Shown one piece after another: positions 5,965 through 22,180 of a stretch of 50,365 nt of DNA. Location: positions 1-50,365 of the forward strand of contig JAQUUP010000013.1 of assembly GCA_028693815.1 (NCBI GenBank), given 5' to 3'. The notes under the pieces were generated by a model. That model made no database searches. It was not told the DNA's origin and was given only the letters and a program-made list of their open reading frames with translations. The stretch's first letter is position 1. Each line of letters begins with the position of its first letter. The stretch comes from Candidatus Omnitrophota bacterium. GTDB taxonomy: Bacteria > Omnitrophota > Gorgyraeia > Zapsychrales > Aceulaceae. The position numbers and the translations under genes were made by a program.

Positions 5965-6001
5965 CCATTTCTTGAAAAACATCAGAAATAAGCTATAATT
6001 A

Positions 6002-6058
6002 AAACACTGTAATCACTAATGTTGACTTTTTTGTATAACATTAGTGATTACAGTGTTT
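6002..6058. repeat. perfect 22-bp inverted repeat with 13-base loop between smpB and ssrA
   Basis: Arms 6002-6023 and 6037-6058 are exact reverse complements, separated by 13 bases. The transcript would form a long stem-loop after smpB. No clear T-run follows, so a simple intrinsic terminator is not certain. No flanking target duplication suggesting an insertion was seen. Confidence 0.9.
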
Positions 6059-6121
6059 AATGCTGTATTCCGTTTTTGAATAATATATGAAATTCGGCAT
6101 TGATTTATCGTTCTTTAAAAG

Positions 6122-6517
6122 GGGGGTGACAAGGCTTCGACTTGAGCTTCACCCGATATTGGTGGCATGCCGAGGATGTCTAGTTGGCCTCGTTAATCAT
6201 CTAGGCAAATAATAAACGCAGATAATCTAATTGCGAAAGCTAACGAGATTGTTGAACCAATCTTCGCTGGCGAAACAGTCCCTGTTTAAATAAATAGGGC
6301 CCTTTTTCAAGATTTTGTCTATGGGTTTTGAGAAAGGTTATTTAATAGGCTGGCTTTGTTGATCGCCTTTGTTGGCAAAGTGAGATTTAAAGGCTAGCTT
6401 TGATAATGTTTGTTTGTTTAAAGTGATCAAAGTGAAATTTTAAAAAACAAACTATGCATGTAGAGGCCTTTATTAGGTATCCCAAGGACCGGGGTTCGAT
6501 TCCCCGCACCTCCACCA
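6122..6517 (+). ncRNA. ssrA: transfer-messenger RNA (tmRNA, SsrA)
   Basis: The 5' end GGGGGTGACAAGGCTTCGAC and the 3' end GGTTCGATTCCCCGCACCTCCACCA form the tRNA-like domain; a 7-bp acceptor stem pairs 6122-6128 with 6507-6513, and CCA is encoded. The likely resume codon is GCA 6218 in AATAAACGCA. The only open frame gives a 23-residue tag that starts ADNLIAKANE and ends GETVPV before TAA 6287-6289. This differs from the usual Ala-Ala tag end. The gene's 3' end is the left attachment site of the island, which restores it intact. Confidence 0.95.
6496..6517 (+). repeat. attL core: 22-bp direct repeat at the 3' end of ssrA
   Basis: The last 22 bases of ssrA are repeated exactly at 22159-22180. 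The ends of tRNA and tmRNA genes are classic integration sites for tyrosine recombinases, and an integrase gene lies 0.8 kb inside this end. Confidence 0.9.
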
Positions 6518-6736: not shown

Positions 6737-7270
6737 ATGGTAAAAAAGAAAATAAAAGTTATTTCAACTTCTCAAGAAATTATTCAAAGCATGATTTATA
6801 TTGTCAGAGGGCAGAAAATAATGCTTGATGAAGATTTGGCTCAATTGTATGGAGTAACGACTAGTCGTTTGAATGAACAAGTCAAAAGGAATGTTAAGAG
6901 ATTTCCAGATGATTTTATGTTTCAATTATCAAAGGATGAATTTCAGGTCTTGAAATCGCAATTTGCGACATCAAGTTGGGGTGGTCGAAGGAAACTACCT
7001 TTTGCCTTTACCGAACAAGGTGTTGCTATGCTCTCGAGTGTTTTAAATAGCGATCGGGCGATACGGGTTAATATTACAATTATGAGGACATTTACGCAGT
7101 TGAGACAATTAACTTTTATTCATAAAGAATTAGCTAGTCAATTGAAAAAGATTGAGAATAGGATAGGGAAGCATGATGGAGATATTAGGGCAATAATTGA
7201 TTTGATTAGAAAATTGCATTCAGAGCCTGAAAAACAGAAAAAAGAAATAGGCTTTCATGTAGAAAGTTGA
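6737..7270 (+). CDS. ORF6N-domain DNA-binding protein
   Basis: 177 residues. Residues 12-120 match the ORF6N domain common in phages and mobile elements: IVRGQKIMLDEDLAQLYGV, then LNEQVKRNVKRFPDDFMFQL and the FTEQGVAMLSSVL segment. A helical, charged tail follows (residues 125-177). Such proteins are thought to bind DNA as regulators or antirepressors. A good Shine-Dalgarno (GGAGG) precedes the ATG. The stop overlaps the longest reading of the integrase frame, so the two genes form an operon. Confidence 0.85.
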   Translation: MVKKKIKVISTSQEIIQSMIYIVRGQKIMLDEDLAQLYGVTTSRLNEQVKRNVKRFPDDFMFQLSKDEFQVLKSQFATSSWGGRRKLPFAFTEQGVAMLSSVLNSDRAIRVNITIMRTFTQLRQLTFIHKELASQLKKIENRIGKHDGDIRAIIDLIRKLHSEPEKQKKEIGFHVES

Positions 7271-7281
7271 AACAAAGAACA

Positions 7282-8313
7282 ATGGCAACACTTCGCAAAA
7301 AAGGAAACGCATATTTTATAGACTATCGTGTTGATGGTCGCAGGAGGCGTAAGGCTGTCGGCAAGTCTAAAAAGATGGCAGAGCTTGCATTGAAAGATTT
7401 TGAAGTTAAGCTAGCTCGTAAAGAATTAGGTTTTGATCAAAAAGATTCAACCCTTCACAAGTTACTATTTGATTTTCAAGCATATTGCAAAACTAATGTT
7501 GCTCTTTCTACGCAGAAAAGGTATAGAGCGATACTTAATAATTTTAAAAGATTTTTAAAGACTGATTATTCACATTTAGAAAAGATTTCTCATTTCACCC
7601 CGAAGATTTTTGAAGATTACAAAGGGTTTAGAAAAGGAGATGGTGCAGAGAACCGCACTATTAATGCAGAAATGGTTGTTTTAAGGATGATGCTTCGCTT
7701 AGCCATACAATGGGGTTATTCAAAAGAAAATCCAACAGACGGCGTATCTAAGCTAAAAATAACTAAGAAAGTTTCTCCTGAGTTCTTAACAGATGATCAG
7801 TGTAGGGTTTTGCTCGACAAGGCAGATGATTGGTTTAGGGCAATACTTTTTACATTCTTAAATACAGGAATGCGTAAGAGTGAGCTTGAGAATCTTTGCT
7901 GGGACAATGTTGATTTTAAAAGAAGAAAGATCCGTATTATTGAAAAAGATGGATGGTCTCCGAAAACGAATGAGAGAGAAATTCCTATTAATGATGTTTT
8001 GTGTGATGTGCTTCAAAAACAGAGGAATAAAATTAAGAATAGTAAATATGTTTTTCCTGATGAAAAAGGGAAGAAAATATTTCAGAATCGCCTTCGTAAG
8101 AAATTAATGAGTCTTACTAAAAAATGTGGATTTCCAGAGATTACTAAGATCCATGCTCTTAGGCACACTTTTGCTTCACACTTAGTTATGAAGGGTGTAG
8201 ATTTAGCTACAGTGAAGAAATTAATGGGTCATTCCGATATTGATACAACTATGATTTATAGTCATCTTACGGAGAAACATGTAGATGATGCGGTTGAGAA
8301 GTTAAATTTCTGA
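7282..8313 (+). CDS. int: tyrosine recombinase / integrase
   Basis: 343 residues from ATG 7282. The N-terminus has an arm-type DNA-binding region (TLRKKGNAYFIDYRVDGRRR), then a SAM-like core-binding domain (about 60-155). The catalytic domain shows Arg in NTGMRKSELENL, the HALRHTFASHL box, LMGHSDIDTTMIYSHL and the nucleophile Tyr in MIYSHL. It probably catalyses integration at ssrA. A TTG at 7267 in the same frame overlaps the upstream stop; ATG 7282 fits the domain start better. The last 34 codons are echoed in a diverged copy at 9241-9342. Confidence 0.93.
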   Translation: MATLRKKGNAYFIDYRVDGRRRRKAVGKSKKMAELALKDFEVKLARKELGFDQKDSTLHKLLFDFQAYCKTNVALSTQKRYRAILNNFKRFLKTDYSHLEKISHFTPKIFEDYKGFRKGDGAENRTINAEMVVLRMMLRLAIQWGYSKENPTDGVSKLKITKKVSPEFLTDDQCRVLLDKADDWFRAILFTFLNTGMRKSELENLCWDNVDFKRRKIRIIEKDGWSPKTNEREIPINDVLCDVLQKQRNKIKNSKYVFPDEKGKKIFQNRLRKKLMSLTKKCGFPEITKIHALRHTFASHLVMKGVDLATVKKLMGHSDIDTTMIYSHLTEKHVDDAVEKLNF

Positions 8314-8382: not shown

Positions 8383-8712
8383 ATGGATAAGATGCTTTGT
8401 TTAGCTTTTTTAATTATTGTTTATGTTGGCATAAAAAGATTTTTCTTAGAAATAAGGTGTGATATTAAGCAAATTAAAGAAAAGCTCGGAATTAGTGAAT
8501 TGAATAGATATGAAATGGCATATAAAGAAAATGATACTGTTTCCAGGGGACGATGGATTAAAAGTATGCTGGCAGAGAGATATAGCGAGATTGAGATCGC
8601 AAGCGCCTATTTTGATATATGGGGGCGAATAAGTTGGTATTTTTCAGGTAGGAAGATATTGAAATCGCTATCGAAATCTCAAAATAAGAAAAAAGAAAAT
8701 TCTGATGAATAA
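8383..8712 (+). CDS. small membrane-anchored protein of unknown function
   Basis: 109 residues, not recognised. One N-terminal hydrophobic segment (about residues 4-20) is followed by a charged cytoplasmic-type region. A strong GGAGG lies 6 bases before the ATG. The 3' end overlaps the next gene by 8 bases, so the pair is probably co-translated. Both genes lie between the full integrase and a remnant integrase tail, which suggests they arrived together as a cassette. Confidence 0.7.
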   Translation: MDKMLCLAFLIIVYVGIKRFFLEIRCDIKQIKEKLGISELNRYEMAYKENDTVSRGRWIKSMLAERYSEIEIASAYFDIWGRISWYFSGRKILKSLSKSQNKKKENSDE

Positions 8713-9244
8713 ATTATTAATCATATTAGCTTTATTGCTTCTTCCAGTACTGTCTTTCGCTCAAGAATGGACGATTAAAGATTGGAATGTTCAGCCGTTT
8801 AGCGGAGGAAGGGTTTTATTTTATGCCCATGGAACGGTTGTTCACGGGCATCAATTTGGATTCTTAAAGAATACTAAGGATTGTGACACAGATATTCTTT
8901 TGATATCTCTCGGATCTTTTGATAAAAAAGTAAAAGATTTTGATGGAGAACCAGTTACTTTTAGCATTGAAGTTGATGGTGTAGAATTTCAGATTAGTGT
9001 TAATGTATTTTCTAAAAATACGGGATCGATTACCATAATGACATTCACTAATTTTGTAGCGAAAGAGGATTTTACTAATTTTCTTATTAAGGGAAATGAG
9101 CTAAATTTAAAAATTGTTGAACCGAAAGAATTTATAAAATATTTTGATATGAACAATGAAACTTTTAGTTTAATTGGTTTTACAGCTGCAAGAAAGAAAG
9201 CGAAAGATTATTGTGAAGAAACAAAAAATAGAGGAGCTTTATGA
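8705..9244 (+). CDS. exported protein of unknown function
   Basis: 179 residues with a clear signal peptide (MNKLLIILALLLLPVLSFAQ; cleavage expected after SFA). The mature part has no recognised domain; it is rich in beta-prone segments and has three Cys residues (two near the middle and C-terminus could pair in the periplasm). It is translationally coupled to the upstream membrane protein (8-base overlap). Its stop overlaps the ATG of the integrase remnant (ATGA). Confidence 0.72.
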   Translation: MNKLLIILALLLLPVLSFAQEWTIKDWNVQPFSGGRVLFYAHGTVVHGHQFGFLKNTKDCDTDILLISLGSFDKKVKDFDGEPVTFSIEVDGVEFQISVNVFSKNTGSITIMTFTNFVAKEDFTNFLIKGNELNLKIVEPKEFIKYFDMNNETFSLIGFTAARKKAKDYCEETKNRGAL

Positions 9245-9342
9245 AGAAATTAATGGGTCACTCTGATATTGATACAACCATGATATATAGCCACCTTACA
9301 AAGAAGCATGTAGATGAGGCGTTAGGGAAATTAGACTTCTAA
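9241..9342 (+). pseudogene. remnant of a second integrase (C-terminal 33 codons)
   Basis: This 102-base stretch matches the last 102 bases of the integrase at 8212-8313 without gaps. I count 18 differences, most of them synonymous. It keeps LMGHSDIDTTMIYSHL with the catalytic Tyr and ends in TAA. The rest of that integrase is absent. The divergence argues for a tail from a related, older element rather than a recent duplication. It still has an ATG overlapping the previous stop, so a 33-residue peptide could be made. Confidence 0.85.
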
Positions 9343-9354
9343 AAGGAGGAATTG

Positions 9355-10575
9355 ATGATCTATGAAATAGAAAAGTTTGTAGTTTGTAACGAGTATACAA
9401 AAAAAGAAATTGAATATTTATTTAATATTTTGCCCTTAGAGGAGAAGAAAAAACTAATTTCAGACTTAGTGAATAATTCTTTGACATCTCGAGTATATGA
9501 ACATCTTGAGAATTTTATTGTTTCTGGAGAGAATAAAATAGATAAGATTATTTTAGTTGAGAATAGCAATTCCATTGACGATAAGAGCTTGATAAGGCTT
9601 TATAATGATGGTGATGAGTTGATGAGAGCTAAAATGATTGAGAGCCAAGGATTATTTTTGGAAGGCAAAGATTTTAAGAGTTTAAGCTTTATGGAGAAAC
9701 TTGCTTATTGTAGGTCATTTAAATATAGTAGTGATTTTGTTGAGAAATTAATAGACCCAGATTGCGATGAGTTAAAGGATGAAGATGGAAGAAGAGAACT
9801 AATTCTTTCTTTTTTTACTAATAAAGAATATATAGAAGACTCAAAAAAGGGTTTTCTTGACGATTCGTATACAGATGGGTTAGATGCTTGTTTTACAGTA
9901 TCAGGAAATAAAAAGATTTGTGAGCTGGTTTTTAAGTGGCTTGAATCTGATCCTGATATTGTCAGTAATTATTTAGATTCTTTTTATGGCGATCAGGATC
10001 TAAAATTGTATATGTACGAGAAGTTAATTGATAGAAAGTATGATTTATTTAGAGCTAAATTGTTTTGGAATTTAGCTGAAGAAAAAACGTTATTTCAGAA
10101 CTACAATGAATTGTTTGAAAAAGGAATAAATGACCCGTATGAAATAATAAGCATTAGATGTGTTGAGCTAAAGGCATTAACTGAAAAAGAATTAGGTAAG
10201 ATTTTAAAAGTTAACGATGGGTACACTAATGGATATTTATTGAGAAATAAGAATTTACATCACACCCTAATGAAAATTATTTTAAATGAGATTGATTCTG
10301 GTGATTTTAATATGCCAGAATTCTTACCGTTTGGGGCAAGGAGAGAGCAGGAAGATGAGTTCAGAGAGCTTTATTATCAGAAAACTTCCGATAGCAAGCA
10401 GAATGTTTTTTATTTCTTGCGTAATTATAGGCAGCTGGAAGACAAAACAGAATCTCAGAAAATTCTTGAATACCTGAAGGTTTTTTATCAAGAGAACAGA
10501 AAGCTTGTAGAATCGATTAAAAAACTTTTATGGGCTGTTATTGTAATACTTATATTATACGAACTTGTCTTATAA
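9355..10575 (+). CDS. large helical tail-anchored protein of unknown function
   Basis: 406 residues, not recognised. No signal peptide is visible. The sequence is acidic and strongly helical, with short repeating helical pairs that could form a HEAT- or TPR-like superhelix. It ends in one C-terminal hydrophobic segment (about the last 18 residues, IVILILYELVL), so a cytoplasmic domain tethered by its tail is likely. ATG 9355 is preceded by AGGAGG at a 5-base spacing, which favours it over the TTG at 9352. It sits directly after the integrase remnant. Confidence 0.72.
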   Translation: MIYEIEKFVVCNEYTKKEIEYLFNILPLEEKKKLISDLVNNSLTSRVYEHLENFIVSGENKIDKIILVENSNSIDDKSLIRLYNDGDELMRAKMIESQGLFLEGKDFKSLSFMEKLAYCRSFKYSSDFVEKLIDPDCDELKDEDGRRELILSFFTNKEYIEDSKKGFLDDSYTDGLDACFTVSGNKKICELVFKWLESDPDIVSNYLDSFYGDQDLKLYMYEKLIDRKYDLFRAKLFWNLAEEKTLFQNYNELFEKGINDPYEIISIRCVELKALTEKELGKILKVNDGYTNGYLLRNKNLHHTLMKIILNEIDSGDFNMPEFLPFGARREQEDEFRELYYQKTSDSKQNVFYFLRNYRQLEDKTESQKILEYLKVFYQENRKLVESIKKLLWAVIVILILYELVL

Positions 10576-10593
10576 AAGATTTAAGGTGATGAA

Positions 10594-11118
10594 ATGAAGA
10601 AATACTTTTTTATCGCAATACTTTTATTCTTTACTTCTTATGTGCATGCTTTTCAAGCTGTAGATATTAATCCTGAATTTCAGCCTACACAAGAAGAGCT
10701 TTTGGGTCTTGCGATTGAAAAAGACTTTGTTCCAGCTGATCATGGTGAAGAGTATTTTAGAGAAAAAATAAAAGAGAAAGATACGTTGCTTGCGTGGGTT
10801 GGTCTTTCTCAGGAAGATAAAATTAAGATTTTGGGAGCCTTGATCGAGATTCATAGACAAGAAGGAACTATCGTTGAGAGACATCCTGTTTATTACGCTA
10901 AAGAGATAGATAAGACTCTTTATATCGGGTTAAGAAAGGGAACTTTTAGAGAGATGGGCGGAATTGGAATTGTTTTTAAGACTATAGCTGTGATGGATGG
11001 AGATTTTGATAACGGAGAAGATCCTAAGGTTCTCCTTGAGAGCTGGATGCCAGTAGAGGTAATAGAGGTTTTTAAACAAACTTATCCAAAAAAATATAAA
11101 AGGATTTTTGGAGAATAA
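10594..11118 (+). CDS. exported protein of unknown function
   Basis: 174 residues with a signal peptide (KKYFFIAILLFFTSYVHA). The mature protein is rich in Glu and Lys, contains no Cys and matches no family I recognise. AAGGTGA precedes the ATG. It is the first of a run of six closely spaced, same-strand genes for exported products (10594-14705). Confidence 0.7.
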   Translation: MKKYFFIAILLFFTSYVHAFQAVDINPEFQPTQEELLGLAIEKDFVPADHGEEYFREKIKEKDTLLAWVGLSQEDKIKILGALIEIHRQEGTIVERHPVYYAKEIDKTLYIGLRKGTFREMGGIGIVFKTIAVMDGDFDNGEDPKVLLESWMPVEVIEVFKQTYPKKYKRIFGE

Positions 11119-11145
11119 AGTTTTGGTAAAGGGAGATTGAGTGTA

Positions 11146-11709
11146 ATGAAGAAAATAATAATAGGGCTAATATTTTGTTTTTTAGTTTTTTGTTCAGAAT
11201 CCGTTGCTGATATGTATCATAATTATATTGAGTATCGATACCAGCCTAAATTAGGAAAAATAACAATTTCAGATAGTTTTGTGCGTAGCGTGGAATATGT
11301 TGATTATGTATCTGATAACTGGGAAAAATTAGCTAAGGAAGATATTTTTGTTCATGGGGAACTTCATGCAGGAGAGGCGAGAACTTTTAAAAGAAGTGCT
11401 GTAATTGGGAAACATAAGATTGATACAGTTTTGACGCTTTATCCTCCCGCAGGCAATGGCATGGGCGGAGCATACCCAACAACTTACTTGCAAGTGATGA
11501 TTGATGAAAAGAAGAAGATAGATTGTAATATAGGGTTTTTCCCTGGAGGAAAGGAGAAAGTTTCTCAGATAACGATTCACCCCGAGGATGATGCAATCTT
11601 TGTTGATGCATTTGATTTTGTAAAAGGTGAAAAAATATGTGATCATTATATTAATATGAGCGATTCTGAGATTGTTACGAATGAATATGTAAAGACAAGT
11701 AAATATTAA
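11146..11709 (+). CDS. exported protein of unknown function
   Basis: 187 residues from ATG 11146, which follows GGGAGA at 9 bases; the longer TTG start at 11137 abuts that ribosome site and is less likely. The signal peptide is MKKIIIGLIFCFLVFCSESVAD with cleavage near SVA. The mature chain has beta-rich character and two Cys (CNIGF and KICDHY) that could form a disulfide. No family recognised. Confidence 0.7.
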   Translation: MKKIIIGLIFCFLVFCSESVADMYHNYIEYRYQPKLGKITISDSFVRSVEYVDYVSDNWEKLAKEDIFVHGELHAGEARTFKRSAVIGKHKIDTVLTLYPPAGNGMGGAYPTTYLQVMIDEKKKIDCNIGFFPGGKEKVSQITIHPEDDAIFVDAFDFVKGEKICDHYINMSDSEIVTNEYVKTSKY

Positions 11710-11750
11710 TAGAAAAGATTGTTGCGAAGGGTTCGGAAAAGGAGAGGGCT

Positions 11751-12239
11751 ATGAAGAAATTATTAATTGTTTTTTGTTGTTTATTGTTTACGAGCTTCAT
11801 AGGTAGCAGAGCTGAAGGAAGGTGTTTATGGTCTTATGACGAAAGCATTCTTTCAGGTCATATTTGCGTAGACGAATCTATAGAGCCTTTTGATTTTGTT
11901 TTTCGAGTTACAAATAATACAAAAACTGCGATTAATTTTAAAATACTCTCCTACAGGGTTGAGATGGAAGACGGATCTATTTATGTCTTAGAAAATCCTC
12001 GAGTTGTAGGCAATGATGGTATTGCAGGCAGCTATATACTTAATCCAAAACAAGTGATAGCGGTATATGCAACATCACCTTTTTCTAGAAAAGAAGAGCT
12101 TGAAAAAGTTAAAGAGGTTTATATAAGGCATGGAGATAAAAGGATATTTTTTGTTTTAGAATCAGAAATTGATGAATATAAAAAGCCAGAAAATATAGCT
12201 ATTAGACATTTAAGAAATCTTTGGTGGAATATTAAGTGA
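11751..12239 (+). CDS. exported protein of unknown function
   Basis: 162 residues with a signal peptide (MKKLLIVFCCLLFTSFIGS). The mature part resembles a small beta-sandwich (FVFRVTNNTKTAINFKIL, a pattern seen in proteinase-inhibitor-like or CARDB-like folds), but I assign no family. The bases from the ribosome site through the first eight codons are almost identical to those of the next gene at 12258, pointing to shared ancestry or exchange of the start region. Confidence 0.7.
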   Translation: MKKLLIVFCCLLFTSFIGSRAEGRCLWSYDESILSGHICVDESIEPFDFVFRVTNNTKTAINFKILSYRVEMEDGSIYVLENPRVVGNDGIAGSYILNPKQVIAVYATSPFSRKEELEKVKEVYIRHGDKRIFFVLESEIDEYKKPENIAIRHLRNLWWNIK

Positions 12240-12257
12240 TAAAATTAGGAGAGGACT

Positions 12258-13244
12258 ATGAAGAAATTATTAATTGTTTTGGTATGTTTCAATTTATTTG
12301 TTTTTAATATTTTTGCAGAAGAATCCGAAGAATCAAATGCTATGTTAGAAAAAAGCGAGTATTACGATTCTCATATTAAAGAGAACGAAGAAATATCAAG
12401 CTTAAGCTCTCTGACAGACGAAGAACTAAGGGCTATGTTAGAAAAGTTGGAAGCTGAAGAATTGAGTGTTTCTCGACTAGACTCTTTAACGGAAAATGTA
12501 ATAGAGGATTATATAATAGAAAAACCTTTAAAGACATATCAATTTTTACACGATTATATTGATTGCCTGCACAGGCTAGAGGTTGCAAATATGTATGCGG
12601 AAATGGAAACATCAAATATTTTAGATCAGATGAAGAATATAAATACTTATATTTCATATTTAAATGAGGCAAAAGAAGTTCTTTATCCCTGGGCAGGGGA
12701 ATTTGTAAATATGAGAAAAGTGGCTATGGATTTTGATAGAATCTTTGCAGATTCAAACAGGATTAACATGATAGCAGGTCCTTTGTATGCGGGTATTAAT
12801 TATATTCAAACTTTGCAGGAGAAGAATCTTAAAATTTTGGATGGCTCAGCAGATGGAACAACCTCGGACATTGTCAAGAATAGTTCTGATATGGAAGTTG
12901 CGTGGGTGCAATTCTATAGGGACTCAGCGAATCTTATTATGGTTATAACTCAACTTCGAAAAGATGACTCTGAAATCCCTATAGGAAAAATACCGCATCT
13001 TATTTCTGATGAAGAACGTTATAAGCTTATAGGTTATCTTAATAAACTTTTTAAAGATAAATTTAAAGAATATAATGAACTAGCTCAGAAATATAAATAT
13101 GGGGCAATTTCTGAGGAAGAATTTAATCCTACAATCGTTACTTATTGTGCTCTTCATTTAAAGAAACTATTATCTGGTGAAACCTATGAGGAATCAAAGG
13201 CAAGAGATGAATCAGAAGACCCCTATTATTTTGAATTAGAATGA
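12258..13244 (+). CDS. exported acidic helical protein of unknown function
   Basis: 328 residues with a signal peptide (MKKLLIVLVCFNLFVFNIFA). The mature N-terminus is very acidic (EESEESN), followed by two similar AMLEKL/SEYY-type acidic helices and a long helical body; coiled-coil potential is likely in residues 30-110. No family recognised. It follows the preceding gene by 18 bases and shares its start-region sequence. Confidence 0.7.
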   Translation: MKKLLIVLVCFNLFVFNIFAEESEESNAMLEKSEYYDSHIKENEEISSLSSLTDEELRAMLEKLEAEELSVSRLDSLTENVIEDYIIEKPLKTYQFLHDYIDCLHRLEVANMYAEMETSNILDQMKNINTYISYLNEAKEVLYPWAGEFVNMRKVAMDFDRIFADSNRINMIAGPLYAGINYIQTLQEKNLKILDGSADGTTSDIVKNSSDMEVAWVQFYRDSANLIMVITQLRKDDSEIPIGKIPHLISDEERYKLIGYLNKLFKDKFKEYNELAQKYKYGAISEEEFNPTIVTYCALHLKKLLSGETYEESKARDESEDPYYFELE

Positions 13245-13269
13245 AAAAAATTATTTAAAGGATGGGGCT

Positions 13270-14076
13270 ATGAAAAAAATACTAATCATTCTAATGTGCC
13301 TAGGATTGGCTGGATGCGTTTCTTATGGGACATCCTATAAAAAATTGGTTTTAGATATGCATAAGCAAGAATATTTATCTAATTCAGATTTCTTCCTTTT
13401 GAATCTTATGAATGAACCGTGCTCTGTTAAGAAAAATATAAATATGATTATTGAGGAGATGGATGGTTTTTTGTCTAGTCTGGAATTTGAGACTAGGTCT
13501 GCTGAAGAAAAGAATATAGTAGTTCAAAGCTATAAATTAATGCTAGAAATGCAAAAAGAAAATCCAGAATTAGTAATTAATACTTATGAAATTCTTAAAA
13601 AAGGATTGGACAGTGAAATAATAACCTGGAAACAATATCGAGATGAGGTTGACAGCTGCAAAGATCTTGAAAAAGATTTTAATAAGGTGCGCACTTATTA
13701 TTCTCTTGCTAATTTTATTGAGAATGAACATAGAAGGAAAAAAGGTTATTTCAAGGATATTGTGTCAAAAGTTGTTGCTTATGCACATAAAAGATGCTCC
13801 CAGTTTGAAACTGACAGAAGAAATGCTATGGATTCTTGGGTTGCCATTCTTTCGGCAGGGGCAGAGAATTCAACAAGAGCAGCAAATCAGTCTTCTTATT
13901 CTGCGCCACAATACGGGGAAGCTCGTATTTATGGCGATAGGATAGAATACCCTGATGGCTCAGAATCTTTTATTTATGGTAATAGAATAGAGAATCCTGA
14001 TGGCTCAGAATCTTTTATTCAAGGCGATAGGATAGAACATCCTGATGGTTCCGAGTCTTTTATTTATGGTAATTGA
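13270..14076 (+). CDS. lipoprotein with C-terminal tandem PDGSESF repeats
   Basis: 268 residues. The lipobox LAGC in MKKILIILMCLGLAGC marks an acylated lipoprotein. The middle is helical and charged. The last 50 residues hold three 15-residue repeats of the form IYGxRIExPDGSESF plus a partial fourth (IYGN), probably a small repetitive beta structure. The rest is not recognised. RBS GGATGGGGCT is shared in style with the gene at 14121. Confidence 0.75.
   Translation: MKKILIILMCLGLAGCVSYGTSYKKLVLDMHKQEYLSNSDFFLLNLMNEPCSVKKNINMIIEEMDGFLSSLEFETRSAEEKNIVVQSYKLMLEMQKENPELVINTYEILKKGLDSEIITWKQYRDEVDSCKDLEKDFNKVRTYYSLANFIENEHRRKKGYFKDIVSKVVAYAHKRCSQFETDRRNAMDSWVAILSAGAENSTRAANQSSYSAPQYGEARIYGDRIEYPDGSESFIYGNRIENPDGSESFIQGDRIEHPDGSESFIYGN
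13927..14061 (+). repeat. three 45-bp in-frame tandem repeats
   Basis: Units at 13927-13971, 13972-14016 and 14017-14061, each coding 15 residues, followed by a truncated unit before the stop. The units are nearly identical at both the DNA and protein level, so copy number may vary between strains. Confidence 0.9.
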
Positions 14077-14120
14077 ATAAAGAATAAATGAAACGCTGTT
14101 TAACAGTTAAGGATGTGGCT

Positions 14121-14705
14121 ATGAAAAAAATAGTATTCGTTTTTGTCTTTTGCTTCTTGGCTGGCTGTGCAACATTTTCTTCGCAGATGTATCCTAATGC
14201 AAAGAAATATCCAGCAACTAATCCTGAAGATATTGCTATATTTGAATTTCCTCCGCAAGAACCATTTGTAGCTATTGGTGAAGTTGGGTCTCAAGCAGCA
14301 CCAGCAGCTCAAAGAGAAAGTCTTTACAAAAGATTGAAGGAGGAAGCTTCTAAAATGGGTGGGGATGCGATTATTGTAAACCATAGCAAAGATGTCGCAG
14401 GTTTCTACAATTCTGGCGGCTCCTCTTATACAAGCGGAACTGTTTATGGCTATGGCAACACGGCAACATATAGCGGAACGACAACTACTTACCCCACTTA
14501 TTCAACTCCGATAGTCAAAAAGATAATCAGAGGTCTTGTTATTAAATATGTGGATGAATCAGAAGTCCCAAAGCAAAAGCTTGAAGTTGAAATAGAAGAA
14601 GATGGGTATGATAAGTTAAAGAAATTAAAAGAACTCAAAGACGACGGTGCTATAACTGAAGAAGAATTTAACAAAGAAAAGAAAGAGATATTAGAGAAGT
14701 ATTAA
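14121..14705 (+). CDS. lipoprotein with C-terminal SHOCT-like domain
   Basis: 194 residues from ATG 14121; the frame extends to ATG 14088, but the ribosome site AAGGATGTGGCT and the signal peptide favour 14121. The signal ends LAGC, a lipobox. A middle segment (RLKEEASKMGGDAIIVNHSKD) resembles YbjQ/heavy-metal-binding-like lipoproteins, followed by a Gly/Ser/Tyr/Thr-rich linker. The C-terminal 30 residues (KLKKLKELKDDGAITEEEF) match a SHOCT domain, a short helix pair found at the ends of many prokaryotic proteins. Its function in the island is unknown. Confidence 0.78.
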   Translation: MKKIVFVFVFCFLAGCATFSSQMYPNAKKYPATNPEDIAIFEFPPQEPFVAIGEVGSQAAPAAQRESLYKRLKEEASKMGGDAIIVNHSKDVAGFYNSGGSSYTSGTVYGYGNTATYSGTTTTYPTYSTPIVKKIIRGLVIKYVDESEVPKQKLEVEIEEDGYDKLKKLKELKDDGAITEEEFNKEKKEILEKY

Positions 14706-14736: not shown

Positions 14737-15711
14737 CTAAAGAGTAGAGCTCGATGAAGTATAGATGTCTTTTAGACTTTTACCGTTCTTTGTTTGTCTT
14801 TGCATCCATCTTTGAGCAGTTTTATAGCTAATACTTTTTCTTTCTGCATATCTTTCCGCCAATGCTTTTTTAACATCCTTCTCACTTTTTCTATGCCTTG
14901 CTAAAGCCATTTGCTTAGCAGTAAACACATAGCGACCTTCTTTTTTAGATAATCTTATGGTGCCTCTACGATTGCTGTAATACAGGTATTTCTTGATGGG
15001 TTCATTTATAAAATCTTCATCAGAGAAATACTTTTTCTTTTTTTCTTTTCTTAGAATATTTTGCAGGTAAATGCCAACGTGATATTTCAAGCCAAGGGAA
15101 TGTTTAGATTGGCACCAATATCCAATGACTTTGGGCAAATTATTTAATAATATTTCAGAGTACTTTATTTTTGTGTATGTTTTATTAAAGTATTTATTAG
15201 CAAACTGGATGAATAGTTGGTTGAATTCGCATGCTGATACTATTTCTCTTTGAGCGAGATATATTCCCAATTCTAGCGTAATAGAATCTGCTAATTCTTC
15301 CACCCAGTTGGAATCATTAATATTAGTATTATCTAAAAAGATAGAAGGAATGAAGCCTCTTGGTAGGCGAGAGAATTTGTCTCCTAATTGAATACCCTTT
15401 AAATCTTTTTTCGTAGCGTAATTACGCATCCGAATGTAATCAACCCAGTCTTTCCAGCTATGAAATATTTCATGCTGTATCTGAAAGTCCAATCTTTTTC
15501 CATTATCAGAAAACGCAGGCTTTAACTTAACAGACTCCTTTCCTGATAGGTCTATAAGGGCAAAGCCTTCAATATCACCATTTTTAGAGGTAAAGATGTG
15601 TCCTCTTAGAGTGGCATTTGGCTTTGATAGCTGAATCATATTTCTCGCAATTTGATTCAACCTCCTGCGTAAACTCCCTCTTCCAAATTTTTTTTCACTA
15701 ATTATCTTCAT
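14737..15711 (-). CDS. HExxH-motif protein with C-terminal helix-turn-helix, possible island regulator
   Basis: 324 residues, no confident family. His80-Glu-Ile-Phe-His84 is an HExxH metallopeptidase motif, and WVEELADSITLEL (residues 136-148) resembles the ExxAD segment of ImmA/IrrE-type peptidases, although the spacing is longer than usual. The C-terminal part (ALAERYAERKSISYKTAQRWMQ) reads like an HTH. It is the only leftward gene of the island and has a full-consensus promoter, as repressor genes of mobile elements often do. The role as a regulator is inference. Confidence 0.7.
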   Translation of the reverse strand: MKIISEKKFGRGSLRRRLNQIARNMIQLSKPNATLRGHIFTSKNGDIEGFALIDLSGKESVKLKPAFSDNGKRLDFQIQHEIFHSWKDWVDYIRMRNYATKKDLKGIQLGDKFSRLPRGFIPSIFLDNTNINDSNWVEELADSITLELGIYLAQREIVSACEFNQLFIQFANKYFNKTYTKIKYSEILLNNLPKVIGYWCQSKHSLGLKYHVGIYLQNILRKEKKKKYFSDEDFINEPIKKYLYYSNRRGTIRLSKKEGRYVFTAKQMALARHRKSEKDVKKALAERYAERKSISYKTAQRWMQRQTKNGKSLKDIYTSSSSTL

Positions 15712-15794: not shown

Positions 15795-16046
15795 ATGAAT
15801 AAAACAAATTATTGTACTGCGAATATTTATGAAGCTGCATATTTATTAACAGTAGGCTTTCAGCTTGCAGGAAAACAAAGAAATGGAGCAAAAATTGTTC
15901 TTGAGTTTAAGGCAAGCCAGAAGTTAATAGATGAGAGTTTAAAGTTTTACAACGGAGGGAGGGTTGACGCAAGAGCATTTAGCGAAGCGTTCAAGAATAT
16001 TAAGAATTTTATTTTTGAAGCAAATAAGGGAAATGTTGCCGTTTAA
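15795..16046 (+). CDS. DUF5659-like protein
   Basis: 83 residues. The pattern YLLTVGFQLAGKQRNGAKIVLEF, then KFYNGGRVDARAFSEAFKNIKNFI matches the small DUF5659 proteins found in mobile elements next to replication genes. The function is unknown. It opens the rightward block that leads into prim-pol. Several purine-rich stretches before the ATG can serve as ribosome sites. Confidence 0.7.
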   Translation: MNKTNYCTANIYEAAYLLTVGFQLAGKQRNGAKIVLEFKASQKLIDESLKFYNGGRVDARAFSEAFKNIKNFIFEANKGNVAV

Positions 16047-16105
16047 AATTATTTTCAATGAGGGCAGAAGATTTAAATTAAATAAATAGGAGGATGAGGA
16101 GAGAA

Positions 16106-18325
16106 ATGGAAAACAAATTATTAGAATACGCATTAAAGTATAGCAAAATTGGATGGTATGTTTTTCCGTGCAGACGAAATAATAAGCATCCAATGACTAA
16201 GAATGGTTTTAAAGACGCCACGATAGATGAGCAGGTTATACGACGATGGTGGACTCGCAATCCAGATGCCATGATTGGAGTTGCTTGTGGTAAGTCGGGA
16301 TTTGTTGTGATTGACATTGATGATAAAGATGGACGTTTTGGCTCAAGAACGTGGGAGGCTATAAAGCATGAGGATATTATAACGGTAGAGTCTATTACTC
16401 CGACAGCTGGAAGACATTTGCTTTTTGAGCTTGATGAAAAAAGAAAAATACATCAAGATTCAGACATTTATGGTCATGTTGGGATAGACATAAGAAATCA
16501 AGGTGGTTATATTATTGTTGAGCCATCGCTTATGACTCCTGAATATGCACACTCGCAAATACTAGGGAAAGATAAGCAGCAAATATATGAATGGGTGGAA
16601 GATCAATCTCCCTTTGATATGAAGCCAATAAGAATGCCAGATTGGGTATATGAATTATTTAAAGAAAAGAAGGAATCCGAGAAAGAGAAATTCAGTCTTC
16701 CTGATAATGTTCCAAAGGGTCAACAAGATGATACTTTTTTTAGATTTGCTTGTAGCTTGAAAGCTCAAGGATATGATCCTGATATGGTAAGAGGTGCGTT
16801 AAAAATATCAATAGAGGAAAGATGTGAGCAAGACAAGGATGATCCATTCACTTGTAAAGATATTGAGCGATGGATTAAGCAGGCTTTTAAGTATGACGAT
16901 GAGAAAAAGGATAAGAAAAAAATTAAGAAAAATAAATTTTTGGAGACGAGTTTTATTGTTTTAGAGGATGGACAGATTGCTGAGATGGTGTGTGATAGGG
17001 CTGATCAAAAAGTGCAGTTTGCTGTTTACGATAAGGAAACGGGAGAGTCGCGCTTGACCGATTCGGTGCTTTATAATGGCAAAACAGTTATTCCATACCA
17101 GAATGATTTCTTAATTAATCCCGTGAACCCTACTGAGACGCCAGTAGTATTGTTGCCAAGCAAAACAGAAGAATATAATTTAGATAAAGAATTGTTTGAC
17201 GAGATAAAGTGTTTTATTCATAAGCATGTTGGATTAAATGAGTGTTTTGAGAAATTAGCCACCATATATGTGATGTTTTCATGGTTATATGATTGTTTTA
17301 CTGTGTTGCCATACATAAGGGTTCTTGGAGATTTCGGAACTGGAAAGTCTAGGTTTTTATCAACAATAGGCTCTATTTGTTACAAGCCAATGACTATTGT
17401 TGCTGCTGTGGGAGAAGCCCCAATTTTCCGCATGATACAAAGATACAAAGGGACTCTCGTTCTTGATGAGGCCAATTTTAAGCATAATGATGTTAATGCC
17501 GCAATTATGCAAATATTAAATGCTGGATATGAGAAAAGAACTCCTGTTGTACGATGCGATTCTAAAGATTATGAGAAAATTATTCAATGTCAAGTTTTTG
17601 GACCTAAGATTATCTCTAGTCGTGAGAAGTGGAAGGATTTAGCTCTTGAAAGTCGGTGTTTAACGCATATGTCTAATACCTCTGAAAGAATACAGGCGGT
17701 TGGGGCAGATCCAGAAGAAGATGATATTCCAATTTATCTTGGACATGAGTTTGATAGACAAGCTTTACAGTTAAGAAATAAGTTATTGCTATATAGGTTT
17801 AGGAATTATGGAGAGAAAGAAATAGATGTGAAAAAGTTAAAATATCCTGTAGAGCCTAGAATATCTCAAATACTTTTGCCACTTGCTAATTTAACTAGTG
17901 ATGAGCAGGTATTGGAAGAAATTAATAATATAGCTAAACAAATGAATAAGGAGCGCATAGAGGATAGATCTTCTAGGTATGAAGCCAAGATACTTCAAGT
18001 AATAAAGAATATTGAGGAGGAAAGAATTGCTAAGGGTGAAAAGATCTACATCAAAGAGATAGCTGATTCCTATAATAAAGAGGCTTATAACGAGAAAGAG
18101 AAAATGAGTCCGCAAAGGATTAGTTATTATATTCGAAAGCCTGAGCTAGCTATAGAATTGCAACCTAAAGATCGTGACGGAAGAAGTATTATTTGCAATT
18201 CCGAGCAGATGAATAAGTTGTATATAAAGTATGGCATTATTACTGCAGATTGTATTGATAATGAGAGCGTGGGCTATATTGATTGTGACGATGTGACGGC
18301 TGTGACGAACTCATGGGAAGAGTAG
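16106..18325 (+). CDS. bifunctional primase-polymerase / helicase replication protein
   Basis: 739 residues from ATG 16106. Residues 10-190 form a prim-pol domain (GWYVFPCRRNNKHPMTKNGFKDA; metal-binding VIDIDDKDG). A primase C-terminal-like helical region follows (about 205-270). The ATPase segment has Walker A (GDFGTGKSR) and a Walker B-like LVLDEANF. Such proteins prime and unwind DNA for replication of plasmids, satellites and phages. ATG 16094 abuts its AGGAGG, so 16106 (after GGAGAG) is preferred. The C-terminal codons overlap the left half of the repeat cluster at 18284-18396. Confidence 0.88.
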   Translation: MENKLLEYALKYSKIGWYVFPCRRNNKHPMTKNGFKDATIDEQVIRRWWTRNPDAMIGVACGKSGFVVIDIDDKDGRFGSRTWEAIKHEDIITVESITPTAGRHLLFELDEKRKIHQDSDIYGHVGIDIRNQGGYIIVEPSLMTPEYAHSQILGKDKQQIYEWVEDQSPFDMKPIRMPDWVYELFKEKKESEKEKFSLPDNVPKGQQDDTFFRFACSLKAQGYDPDMVRGALKISIEERCEQDKDDPFTCKDIERWIKQAFKYDDEKKDKKKIKKNKFLETSFIVLEDGQIAEMVCDRADQKVQFAVYDKETGESRLTDSVLYNGKTVIPYQNDFLINPVNPTETPVVLLPSKTEEYNLDKELFDEIKCFIHKHVGLNECFEKLATIYVMFSWLYDCFTVLPYIRVLGDFGTGKSRFLSTIGSICYKPMTIVAAVGEAPIFRMIQRYKGTLVLDEANFKHNDVNAAIMQILNAGYEKRTPVVRCDSKDYEKIIQCQVFGPKIISSREKWKDLALESRCLTHMSNTSERIQAVGADPEEDDIPIYLGHEFDRQALQLRNKLLLYRFRNYGEKEIDVKKLKYPVEPRISQILLPLANLTSDEQVLEEINNIAKQMNKERIEDRSSRYEAKILQVIKNIEEERIAKGEKIYIKEIADSYNKEAYNEKEKMSPQRISYYIRKPELAIELQPKDRDGRSIICNSEQMNKLYIKYGIITADCIDNESVGYIDCDDVTAVTNSWEE

Positions 18326-18396
18326 GAGTTTGTCACATAATGATTAAAGGAGTAAGGGTCTCTTATGTATGTTGTCACAATCGTCACAGTGTCACA
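18284..18396. repeat. symmetric TGTGAC repeat cluster, candidate replication origin
   Basis: Three TGTGAC units (18284, 18292, 18301) with 8- and 9-bp steps lie at the 3' end of the primase gene. Three inverted units (GTCACA, starting at 18374, 18383 and 18391) with 9- and 8-bp steps follow at 18371-18396, and a single GTCACA sits at 18332. The two triplets form an imperfect inverted repeat of about 26 bp. Iteron clusters next to a replication gene commonly mark origins. Confidence 0.7.
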
Positions 18397-18440: not shown

Positions 18441-18824
18441 ATGATGGAAAATAAAGTCGAGTTAACCGATAAACAATTTTTAGTTATAGGATATTCTTTA
18501 GCAGCATCTTCTATCGAGTCGGCTTGTAAGGAGGCTGGTATTAGTAGAGGAACCTTTTATGAATGGCTAAAGAATAAAGATTTTAAGGATGAACTTAAGC
18601 GTCAAAGAGACGAGATTGTTTTTGCTTCTATAAACAGGCTTCAAGTAGGAATGACAAAGGCAGTCGATGTTTTATTTGATTTGATGGACTCGGATAAGCC
18701 GTCAATTCGTTTATGGGCAGCGAAAGAAATGTTGCATCAAGCCATAAGGGTTAAAGAGGATGAAGATATTATTCAAAGATTAGAGTCTTTAGAGCAAGAG
18801 GCTGGGAAAAAGAATGAGAATTAA
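18441..18824 (+). CDS. phBC6A51-like HTH protein, resembling terminase small subunits
   Basis: About 128 residues; start uncertain between ATG 18432, 18441 and 18444. Residues 5-55 form a helix-turn-helix (SIESACKEAGISRGTFYEWLKN) of the kind annotated as phBC6A51 or as the N-terminal domain of terminase small subunits. A helical region and a coiled-coil tail ending in repeated Glu and Lys follow. No large terminase subunit is present. In satellites a lone small subunit redirects helper packaging; whether that applies here is unknown. Confidence 0.7.
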   Translation: MMENKVELTDKQFLVIGYSLAASSIESACKEAGISRGTFYEWLKNKDFKDELKRQRDEIVFASINRLQVGMTKAVDVLFDLMDSDKPSIRLWAAKEMLHQAIRVKEDEDIIQRLESLEQEAGKKNEN

Positions 18825-19452: not shown

Positions 19453-19635
19453 ATGACTGAAGAAGAAATTAAAGAACAATTTAAAAAGCTGGATATCTTA
19501 ATAGAAAAAGATGCAGATTATTCTGATCCTTATAGCTTTGCTTTAAAGCTTAGGGAAGATTTACCCAAAGACGAATATAATATCTGCTATTCAAACTCTA
19601 CAATATTGCCACAGTACACTTCATACAATGCCTAA
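19453..19635 (+). CDS. small protein upstream of the ClpP/SppA-class protease
   Basis: 60 residues from ATG 19453 (an upstream ATG at 19351 in the same frame lies within xis and is less likely). It begins MTEEEIKEQFKKLDILIEKDADY and is acidic and helical; no family is recognised. A TATAAT at 19423-19428 could give it a promoter separate from xis. It overlaps the protease gene by 8 bases, so the two are probably a functional pair. Confidence 0.6.
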   Translation: MTEEEIKEQFKKLDILIEKDADYSDPYSFALKLREDLPKDEYNICYSNSTILPQYTSYNA

Positions 19636-20533
19636 CTGGAATCAAGTTCTTGAAGAATTAAATCGTGAAGCAAGCACTAGTCCTCTTGATAGAGTTAGGC
19701 GTAAATATCTATCCTCACTATCTATTTACTTAAAAAGAAATGTAATTGCTTATTATTCTGGATGGATACAAAAACCAGGCGTGGATAGTGCAGGAATAAA
19801 TGATAATGATATGAATGGATTGATGGCTGCAGTTCATCAGTTAGATAAAAAAAAGGGTTTGGATTTAATTTTGCATACGCCAGGAGGAAATCTAGCTACT
19901 ATTGAATCGATCGTTGATTACTTGAGAAAAATATTTGGAAGAGATATTCGTGCGTTTGTTCCTCAGATAGCATATTCTGCTGGTACTATGTGGGCTTTGT
20001 CGTGTCGTGAAATAATTATGGGTAAGCATTCTTTTTTAGGTCCGATAGATCCGCAGTTTAATAGGATTTCAGCTGAGGCAGTTAAAGAAGAGTTTGAGAG
20101 GGCGATGAAGGAAACCAAGGAAGACCCAAGCCGAATACTTATTTGGAAAGAAATAATTAAGAAATATCATCCTACTTTTATTGGTGATTGTGAGAAAGCT
20201 ATCGAGTGGTCTAAAGAGATAGTTCAAAAATGGCTTGAGACAAATATGTTTAGCGACAAACCAACTTGCACAGAGGATGCAAAGAAAGTAGTGGAGCGTT
20301 TTTCTAGCCATAAAGAGACAAAGGCTCACAATCGTCAAATACCATCTGTTGACTGCAAGAGTGTTGGTTTAAATATCGTAGATTTAGAAGCTGATTCAAA
20401 GTTGCAAGATTTATTATTAACCGTTCATCATGCATTTATGCATACTTTTTCTAGTACTTCTGCTATAAAAATTATTGAGAATCATGAAGGCAAGGCTTTG
20501 GTTAGTTTTCACAGCGTTCAGCTGAAGAGGTAG
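19628..20533 (+). CDS. SDH/SppA-like serine protease (ClpP-crotonase fold)
   Basis: 301 residues. The central region matches the serine dehydrogenase proteinase (SDH_sah) type of ClpP-class proteins: LDLILHTPGGNLATIESIVDYLR, then PQIAYSAGTMWALSCREIIMG with the likely nucleophile Ser in YSAGT, and HSFLGPIDPQF. No signal peptide or membrane segment is visible, so it is probably cytoplasmic. A helical C-terminal part follows (about 150-300). Proteases of this fold with unknown substrates occur in mobile elements; a role in host take-over or defence is a guess. Confidence 0.8.
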   Translation: MPNWNQVLEELNREASTSPLDRVRRKYLSSLSIYLKRNVIAYYSGWIQKPGVDSAGINDNDMNGLMAAVHQLDKKKGLDLILHTPGGNLATIESIVDYLRKIFGRDIRAFVPQIAYSAGTMWALSCREIIMGKHSFLGPIDPQFNRISAEAVKEEFERAMKETKEDPSRILIWKEIIKKYHPTFIGDCEKAIEWSKEIVQKWLETNMFSDKPTCTEDAKKVVERFSSHKETKAHNRQIPSVDCKSVGLNIVDLEADSKLQDLLLTVHHAFMHTFSSTSAIKIIENHEGKALVSFHSVQLKR

Positions 20534-20644: not shown

Positions 20645-21040
20645 ATGAGAGTTCTGTTATTTTTAGTGTGCATGACTGTATGTTTTTCAGGATGTGCCTC
20701 TGCGCCGTATCATCGTGATCAGCTAAGGGATGATTCTGGAGATCGTTTAACGGTCGGAACGGTTCAGAAAGAAATAAAGGTTGGAATGTCATCGGCACAG
20801 GTAGCAGAAATCTTAGGGTCTCCGAATGTAGTTACAACTGATGAACAAAGGCGTGAGGTTTGGGTTTACGATAAGATTTCTACTGAAGTTTATTATTCTG
20901 AAAGCGGAGCAGGACTAAAGTTTATGACATCGGGAAGCTCTGGAGGGGCAACGAAGACCCAGAGAACATTAACAGTTGTTATTAAATTTGATTCAGAAGG
21001 TAAAGTTAGAGATTTTGCTTATCATACATCGAGGTTTTAA
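20645..21040 (+). CDS. BamE/SmpA-like lipoprotein
   Basis: 131 residues. The signal peptide ends FSGCAS, a lipobox. The domain at residues 35-90 has the SmpA/OmlA pattern: VQKEIKVGMSSAQVAEILGSPNVV and an aromatic EVWVYD segment. BamE-type proteins help the outer-membrane beta-barrel assembly machine; many small lipoproteins share the fold without that role. It is the first gene of a three-lipoprotein operon at the right end of the island. Confidence 0.78.
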   Translation: MRVLLFLVCMTVCFSGCASAPYHRDQLRDDSGDRLTVGTVQKEIKVGMSSAQVAEILGSPNVVTTDEQRREVWVYDKISTEVYYSESGAGLKFMTSGSSGGATKTQRTLTVVIKFDSEGKVRDFAYHTSRF

Positions 21041-21042
21041 AT

Positions 21043-21591
21043 ATGAAAAAATTTTTTTATGGTGCTGTAGTCTTATTATTCTTTTGTGGTTGTGCAGCTA
21101 CTTTACCGAAAGACATGCTTAAGTTGTCAGACGAGAGCTTAAAAAACAGAGAGCAGCAAATGCGTCAGTATGAAACTACGGATGAAGAGAAAATCCTCGT
21201 CTCCTCAGCTACTGTTTTGCAAGATTTGGGATTCATTATTGATGACACCGAGACGGAACTCGGGTTTATTGCTACTTCAAAAAGTGCTGATGCTACTAAC
21301 GCAGGACAAATTGCAGGTGCTTTTTTTATTGATATGCTTGCCGCTTTAGGAGGAAATGCAAGCGCTTCGGCTACTAAGAATTGTGATAAAGAACAAAAGG
21401 TTCGAGCTTCGATTATAGTTAAACCTAGCAATGATAAAAGCAAAATGGTTGTTAGGATTACATTTCAAAGAATTGTTTGGAATCAAGCAGGATTAGTTTC
21501 TCGTTTTGAAACAATAAGGGATGAAGAGATGTATCAAACTTTTTTTGATAAATTGTCTAAATCGATTTTCTTAGAGGAGCAACAAATATGA
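21043..21591 (+). CDS. lipoprotein, paralogue of the next gene
   Basis: 182 residues. The signal peptide ends FFCGCAA with the lipidated Cys. The body shares a pattern with the following gene: YETTDEEKILVSSATVLQDLGFIID, LGFIATSK, then VRITFQ and YQTFFDKLSKSIFL. Relative to it, this copy has an insertion rich in Ala and Gly (residues 82-115) that includes a hydrophobic stretch. Not assigned to a named family. It follows the BamE-like gene by 2 bases. Confidence 0.78.
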   Translation: MKKFFYGAVVLLFFCGCAATLPKDMLKLSDESLKNREQQMRQYETTDEEKILVSSATVLQDLGFIIDDTETELGFIATSKSADATNAGQIAGAFFIDMLAALGGNASASATKNCDKEQKVRASIIVKPSNDKSKMVVRITFQRIVWNQAGLVSRFETIRDEEMYQTFFDKLSKSIFLEEQQI

Positions 21592-22010
21592 AAAAGATTA
21601 GAATCTTCATTATTTTATTCTTAGTGTTAATTATGTCGGGATGTGCCACAACAACTCAACAGGTTATGACGACCCAAGAGAGCCAGGTAATGTTAAGGTC
21701 GATGCAGACTAGAGTTTTCGATACTACCGATAGAAACATGATGTTGAGAACGATTATCGGAACGCTTCAAGATTTAAATTTTGTTATTGATAGCGCAGAT
21801 GAAATGCTTGGAACAATAACTGCTACAAAATATGTTTATAATAGTGTTTTAAAATCTACTGTAACTGTTAGACCTAGAGGAGAAACTCAGCTTCTCGTTC
21901 GTTTAAACGCACAATACGGGTTAAAAACAGTTGAGGATCCAGAAACATATCAGGATTTTTTTACTGCCCTAGAGAAGGCTATATTTTTAACAGCTCATCA
22001 GGTTGATTAA
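21588..22010 (+). CDS. lipoprotein, paralogue of the previous gene
   Basis: 140 residues. The signal peptide ends MSGCAT. It shares with its upstream neighbour DTTDRNMMLRTIIGTLQDLNFVID, LGTITATK, VTVRP and YQDFFTALEKAIFL, but lacks the Ala/Gly insertion. The ATG overlaps the previous stop by 4 bases. The tandem arrangement suggests a duplication followed by divergence, perhaps forming a hetero-oligomer in the outer membrane. Confidence 0.78.
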   Translation: MKKIRIFIILFLVLIMSGCATTTQQVMTTQESQVMLRSMQTRVFDTTDRNMMLRTIIGTLQDLNFVIDSADEMLGTITATKYVYNSVLKSTVTVRPRGETQLLVRLNAQYGLKTVEDPETYQDFFTALEKAIFLTAHQVD

Positions 22011-22011
22011 T

Positions 22012-22031
22012 TGGTGCCTAAATGGTGCCCA
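22012..22031 (+). promoter_or_regulatory. paired 9-bp sites near attR (candidate integrase arm sites)
   Basis: TGGTGCCTA (22012-22020) and TGGTGCCCA (22023-22031), with 11-bp periodicity as at 6590-6609. The pair lies about 130 bases inside the right end of the island. Confidence 0.6.
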
Positions 22032-22158
22032 TCTTACATCAAAACGCTCGCACTTTAGCGTATCTAAATGTAACTGTTCGCACAACTTTTTAAGAGCGTT
22101 CCTCGACGCTATTTGAGTAAAGTTATTGAAAATAAAGGAGTTATGTCGTCGGGGCTAA

Positions 22159-22180
22159 TCGATTCCCCGCACCTCCACCA
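22159..22180 (+). repeat. attR core: second copy of the ssrA 3' end
   Basis: These 22 bases are identical to 6496-6517. Upstream similarity breaks down at once (GGGGCTAA instead of GGGGT), so this is the displaced original end of ssrA, not a second gene. The 130 bases between this and 22031 hold no gene. Confidence 0.9.

Follow-up and report, generated by a model that had tools for sequence, protein, structure and literature searches.

A mirrored TGTGAC array behind a PrimPol-helicase gene is a probable replication origin of a satellite-like island in Omnitrophota

A 113-bp array of TGTGAC units lies where a PrimPol-helicase gene ends in the genome of a Candidatus Omnitrophota bacterium, and we conclude that it is very probably the replication origin of an integrated, satellite-like island, with iterons that would be bound by the C-terminal winged-helix domain of the PrimPol-helicase. 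The stretch of DNA analyzed, here called the window, comprises 50,365 nucleotides of contig JAQUUP010000013.1 (assembly GCA_028693815.1), and the array is carried on a 15.7-kb island in it whose two ends are marked by a 22-bp direct repeat of the 3' end of tmRNA. Origins of this kind are already known from SaPI/PICI elements and from phages P4 and A2. The hexamer TGTGAC, the helicase clade, and the recurrence of TGTGAC across helicase families seem unreported, and a search of the open-access literature found no description of TGTGAC as an origin or iteron.

Anatomy and rarity of the array

The proposed origin (18284-18396, no strand assigned) contains seven exact TGTGAC units, arranged as two mirrored arms of iterons around 67 bp. 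The left arm is on the + strand and has units at 18284-18289, 18292-18297, and 18301-18306, with steps of 8 and then 9 bp. The right arm is on the - strand, with an inner unit at 18374-18379, a middle unit at 18383-18388 (step of 9), and an outer unit at 18391-18396 (step of 8). A single inverted unit (18332-18337, - strand) is between the arms. These coordinates agree with the mirrored steps and the single inner unit of the original prediction, which had put the gap between the two triplets at 60 bp; the measured interval is 67 bp (18307-18373). The prediction had also placed the array across the primase stop codon, and the TAG (18323-18325) is indeed inside it. Consequently, the left triplet is coding sequence (CDDVTAVTN) and the remainder of the array is non-coding.

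The outer arms (23 nt each) are 83% complementary, and this complementarity comes from the units alone, as the spacers match at only one of five positions. The inner unit pairs with the third + strand unit of the left arm as a local hairpin that extends beyond the hexamer (TGTGACgAACTC/GAGTTtGTCACA, 18301-18312 with 18326-18337), and the window strand at the array folds better than shuffled sequences (z -3.8). The 67 bp between the arms are 63% AT, compared to 64.6% for the window. Because the gap is no richer in AT than the window, there is no clear melting site between the arms.

The array is real and far above chance. No other hexamer in the window is clustered as densely as these seven copies in 113 bp. 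When the whole window was shuffled 200 times with a first-order Markov model, no more than six copies were obtained (among hexamers containing G or C), and this number was attained once. Over the window, TGTGAC was otherwise near background (15 found versus 9.0 expected), and a TGTGAC pair with a 9-bp step occurred in just two further places in the 1.9-Mb genome of the host. When the array pattern was searched for in 383 relatives of the host, the only match was the host's own genome, indicating that the array is a trait of the mobile element and not of the lineage.

The putative initiator is a PrimPol-helicase

The gene that ends in the array (16094-18325, + strand) encodes a PrimPol-helicase of 743 aa, the proposed initiator, with a Prim-Pol domain at aa 13-184 (PF09250, 8e-32). 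The helicase half (window 16904-18322) had no Pfam or NCBIfam family match, and we characterized it by structure prediction. An AlphaFold2 model from an alignment of 31 rows was confident (pLDDT of 82, pTM of 0.82), whereas one from only three rows was poor (pLDDT 46). The model has an AAA+/SF3-type helicase core (17183-17803, + strand, approximately aa 364-570) with the Walker A motif GDFGTGKS and a D5/MCM/PriRep1-like fold, followed by a C-terminal winged-helix-like domain (17978-18229, + strand, aa ~629-712, local pLDDT about 75-93). Foldseek matches included MCM, the NrS-1 phage helicase (CTR), MPXV E5, papillomavirus E1, and PriRep1. Their TM-scores were modest, and we take these matches to the model to indicate a class of fold and not close kinship. 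On the basis of the model, we read aa ~629-712 as a putative iteron-binding winged helix; the first iteron is ~55 bp past the end of this domain. The protein tail encoded by the array is disordered in the model.

Some relatives of the helicase keep the position and the layout of the array

A mirrored TGTGAC array is also present beside the helicase gene of a relative; looking for it next to prim-pol genes of related elements was the check proposed with the original prediction. L070, a contig from a Thermoplasmatota bin (the archaeal label is that of the metagenome bin), was retrieved by the DNA motif alone, and one of its proteins is related to the helicase half at 38% identity (phmmer 5e-74). 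It has a 3+3 mirrored TGTGAC array in the 3' part of the gene, right after the shared C-terminal domain as in the window, and an integrase gene is next after the array. The L070 protein tail is VT-rich, and its array spacers mostly fail to pair. A weaker helicase homologue, in L086, begins after a TGTGAC array rather than ending there.

The array appears to travel with the helicase half of the protein and not with the PrimPol half, as there was no TGTGAC array with the homologues of the PrimPol domain in relatives of the host (L003-L007 and L009). There was also none in Streptococcus phage SW9, Micrococcus phage Kurnik, or a Thermaerobacter plasmid, all of which have similarity to the PrimPol domain. 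Used as a single-protein query, the full PrimPol protein found no relatives in the genome and viral contig collections. L002, the closest homologue from within the class of the host, has no TGTGAC, and the repeat structure around its stop codon is of another kind and less clear.

An alignment-based protein search yielded 32 viral homologues of the helicase, and the Pfam-less helicase half, with more than 30 viral homologues, is possibly an undescribed clade of helicases. By the terms of the original prediction, it would be refuted if related elements conserved the flanking genes but not the repeats. That concern was borne out for the hexamer in many more distant homologues: none of the viral homologues checked had a TGTGAC cluster at the helicase 3' end, nor did any of ten named phages chosen as helicase relatives. 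It did not extend to the layout in several viral homologues, which keep mirrored short repeats of another sequence there, often with a GTGA core. Mirrored GTTACT/AGTAAC arrays are inside the C-terminal coding tail of the helicase homologue in L195 (7211-7361) and L196 (5897-6058), and the helicase homologues of L189 and L182 have mirrored CTTCAC/GTGAAG and TTCACT/AGTGAA repeats, respectively. Among 26 non-redundant helicase 3' ends, AGTG and GTGA were the most enriched 4-mers besides those made only of A and T. Thus, repeats are conserved along with the initiator as hexamer and layout in L070, and as layout in L182, L189, L195, and L196. Persistence of position and layout with a changing hexamer is what would be expected of iterons that co-evolve with their initiator.

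Mirrored TGTGAC arrays are mostly found directly 3' of primase-helicase genes

The TGTGAC motif and its mirrored layout are strongly over-represented in other elements. The triple-unit pattern TGTGACNNTGTGACNNNTGTGAC was found in 45 viral contigs, and a control with the hexamer reversed was found in none. The mirrored four-unit pattern was found in 72 viral contigs and 44 genome contigs. Controls with the same layout in the same viral collection gave 4 contigs (AGTGAA) and 1 contig (CAGTGT). The 44 genome contigs span Alphaproteobacteria, Firmicutes, Chloroflexi, Actinobacteria, Bacteroidota, Synergistota, and two archaeal bins.

Most of these arrays are immediately 3' of genes for self-loading primase-helicases (D5/DUF5906, VapE, DUF927). 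Counted with phmmer, 69 of the 116 mirrored arrays have their start in a zone from -250 to +300 bp around a primase-helicase 3' end, which makes up 7.7% of the sequence as background. The median offset was +28 bp, in a set that is partly redundant, dominated by a single family (offset 28 bp), and includes many contigs cut at an end. For 44 of the 116, there was no recognized helicase 3' end within 1.5 kb (some of these contigs are cut). The Pfam assignments were one-sided: the genes with 3' ends abutting arrays (n = 93) matched DUF5906 (39), D5_N (30), VapE (9), DUF927 (8), and Cch HTH (3), counts that overlap between families, and the genes with 5' ends abutting arrays (n = 66) matched DUF5906 twice and D5_N once. 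In the related arrays, the gap between the arms averages ~10 AT points above its own locus.

Four marine contigs (L010, L013, L014, and L051) have two tandem mirrored TGTGAC arrays with no recognized helicase abutting them. These arrays are between a gene judged terS-like by eye and a nuclease-like gene.

Proposed function of the array as an origin

The leading idea of the original prediction, an island origin bound by the primase, is supported by L070 and by the arrays at primase-helicase 3' ends. From the array, the recurrence of its position and mirrored arms among independent elements, and the helicase fold, we infer how such an origin might be bound, loaded, melted, and fired. Each TGTGAC would be an iteron recognized by the winged-helix domain of the island's PrimPol-helicase, and each mirrored arm would nucleate one helicase hexamer, such that two hexamers face each other. 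The facing pair would melt the DNA between the arms, and the fused PrimPol domain would prime the exposed strands. Replication of the excised circle would then proceed in both directions, starting immediately behind the circle's initiator gene. The mirrored arms with fixed steps of 8-9 bp suggest two facing hexamers, and they make loading of D5/MCM-like helicases testable.

It is also possible, although we stop short of calling it probable, that mirrored TGTGAC is a recurrent recognition code of self-loading helicases across families (the Pfam-less clade of the window, DUF5906/D5_N, VapE, and DUF927/Cch), shared by phages and islands across many bacterial phyla and perhaps in archaea as well. 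TGTGAC would then be one "allele" of a wider set of iterons with a GTGA core that includes those of P4 and perhaps SCCmec. If so, DNA sequence by itself would suffice to call origins in uncultured elements. In uncultured lineages, few origins of satellites or temperate phages are annotated, and TGTGAC mirrored at a primase-helicase 3' end is a handle for finding candidate origins in many bacterial phyla without knowledge of the proteins. The layout outlasts changes of the hexamer.

We considered whether the array might serve the gene next to it. The neighboring HTH protein (18441-18824, + strand), whose gene begins 44 bp downstream of the array, resembles terminase small subunits (phrog_2538, 8e-11; PF13022, 5e-7), and pac sites are often in or beside terS genes. 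The array could therefore be a packaging site recognized by this protein, and the marine arrays near a terS-like gene (identified by eye) fit with that. We think this very unlikely. A small-terminase model matched only 1 of the 66 genes with 5' ends at arrays, primase-helicases dominate on the other side, and L070 carries the array yet has no evident terminase-like gene in 8 kb. The HTH protein, which the original prediction had offered as an alternative to the primase, fares worse as the binder: it is terS-like, and such genes rarely adjoin arrays. The tight operator that had also been proposed fares no better. Dense repeats of a short site can act as cooperative operators, and a repressor or the HTH protein might in this way control the downstream genes or autoregulate the primase operon; a primase could also bind its own origin and dampen transcription at the same time. 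But a + strand sigma-70-like promoter, such as an operator would require, was not detected near the array, the array is at the 3' end of a gene, and the same layout is found behind helicase genes of different families with differing neighbors, all of which make an operator extremely unlikely.

The array might also be a cruciform or stem-loop origin of the pRN1 type, in which the folded structure and not the iterons is the signal. In the PrimPol replicon of pRN1, a stem-loop of about 100 bp that immediately follows the replication gene is essential (PMC4234260), the window strand has the favorable fold described above, and inner spacers across the related arrays are complementary above expectation (0.77 versus 0.34), numbers that are indicative only, as the single-linkage clusterings used to remove redundancy over-merged. 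This spacer pairing may leave room for a stem-loop component. As the signal itself, structure seems very improbable: the hexamers are exact while only one of five spacer positions matches in the window and the L070 spacers are mostly unpaired, and shared spacers could equally reflect a longer, array-specific iteron, since spacers on the same strand within arrays agree as well (0.54 versus 0.32, subject to the same over-merging). In addition, binding by Cch2 required direct repeats and not inverted repeats (PMC7581432). Last, the left arm encodes DDVTAVTN and the L070 tail is VT-rich too, as might be seen if the array were a coding repeat of a VT-rich protein tail, or chance, and did nothing as DNA. 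However, the window's right arm does not code for protein and the layout is mirrored across the stop codon, the motif and layout recur in many contigs relative to controls, and the shuffles never reached seven copies. We regard this explanation as practically negligible.

Comparison to known origins

An iteron origin behind the initiator gene, as we propose for the island, has precedents in several kinds of elements. In SaPIs, the C-terminal domain of Rep recognizes an iteron origin directly downstream of its own gene (PMC7581432), and PICI origins have two sets of iterons immediately 3' of rep (PMC6092414). The island shares with the SaPI/PICI elements of Staphylococcus aureus and Gram-negative bacteria (pri-rep-ori) an integrated state and the order primase-helicase, origin with two iteron sets, terS-like gene, and PriRep1 is among the fold matches of its helicase. 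It differs in its iteron (TGTGAC), in a helicase half with no Pfam or NCBIfam family, and in the middle of the array, which is not AT-rich. Dependence on a helper phage, interference with capsids, and a regulator of the stl/rpr/alpA type are further features of SaPI/PICI elements.

The putative origin of SCCmec Cch/Cch2 is similar in that the C-terminal domain of a self-loading helicase, Cch2, binds short repeats directly downstream of cch2 (PMC7581432). It differs in having three AAGTG repeats in one direct array and a primase that is a separate polypeptide. ORF904 of the archaeal PrimPol plasmid pRN1 is a fusion of PrimPol, SF3 helicase, and winged helix that primes at GTG, and an essential region is directly 3' of its gene (PMC4234260). 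That region has a stem-loop without a TGTGAC array; there is one isolated inverted copy of TGTGAC.

Phage P4 has annotated type-1 repeats in both orientations 3' of its primase-helicase gene. The short, two-orientation iterons of P4 crr/ori, which are associated with the alpha protein, have a GTGA core (GGTGAACA) in common with the units in the window. The P4 iterons are TGTTCACC, which is absent from the array in the window, and have the GTGA core on the other strand; in addition, crr consists of a duplicated 120-bp unit, and the ori is annotated at a distance of several kilobases.

The origin of Lactobacillus phage A2 likewise lies across a stop codon. In the A2 record, the rep_origin starts no more than 30 bp before the primase gene ends and crosses the stop, and the DNA has mirrored GGGAGGAT-type iterons around an AT-rich centre. 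The A2 origin has reportedly been tested experimentally (Moscoso and Suarez, 2000). L064, a contig from Levilactobacillus, encodes an array-bearing primase-helicase that is 60% identical to that of A2 and has TGTGAC at the homologous place. A2 differs from the island in its iteron, in its AT-rich centre, and in being a full temperate phage and not a small island, and phmmer shows no sequence relationship between its primase-helicase and the helicase half in the window.

The island and its genes

The island is integrated at the 3' end of the tmRNA gene (6122-6517, + strand), which was the sole Rfam match. The left att repeat, TCGATTCCCCGCACCTCCACCA (6496-6517, + strand), is the 3' end of tmRNA, and an identical 22-bp right att repeat (22159-22180, + strand) is 15.66 kb away. 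In G003, which belongs to the same family, only ~3.6 kb separate the tmRNA gene from the gene that flanks the island on the right, and nothing in this interval matches the island's DNA, which fits with the island being an insertion. The picture is less clean in another genome: 173 bp at the right end of the island (22006-22178) recur with 83% identity near the tmRNA gene in G002, a genome of the same genus (2042-2214 of the reverse complement of L229), which suggests that a remnant or a related element occupies this site. A long, near-perfect inverted repeat (CACTGTAATCACTAATGTT ... AACATTAGTGATTACAGTG, window 6001-6060) immediately precedes the tmRNA gene.

Several properties of the island are those of a PICI. 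It has a tyrosine integrase (7267-8313, + strand; PF00589, 4.7e-35) and a specific att site, and a pri/rep gene followed by a putative origin with two iteron sets. The island proteins scanned include no capsid, tail, or large terminase of its own, with the terS-like gene present. Matches to structural PHROGs were absent among them, except for the terS-like gene and a weak head-protease-like match, which is the island's ClpP/SDH-type protease. One large-terminase model (PF04466) had no matches in the host genome, and PADLOC found no defence genes among the proteins scanned. By analogy, then, the array would work like an origin of the PICI/SaPI type. We have not filed the island itself as a PICI because the centre of the array is not AT-rich and the candidate regulator has no family match. 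That candidate is the product of an orphan gene (14737-15711, - strand; 324 aa) that is divergent to the replication genes and has a perfect sigma-70-like promoter (15767-15739). It had no match in protein-family scans, and a role as the island's regulator is possible.

Other genes of the island were less informative. A small DUF5659 protein is encoded directly 5' of the PrimPol-helicase gene (15795-16046, + strand). The ClpP/SDH-type serine protease (19628-20533; PF01972; phrog_11747, 8e-94) is encoded downstream of the terS-like gene. The regions 8705-14702 and 20645-22010 have small lipoprotein-like or secreted cargo genes with no informative family matches in the scans. Between the left att and the integrase gene, an ORF (6737-7270) appears by eye to be KilA-N/ORF6N-like.
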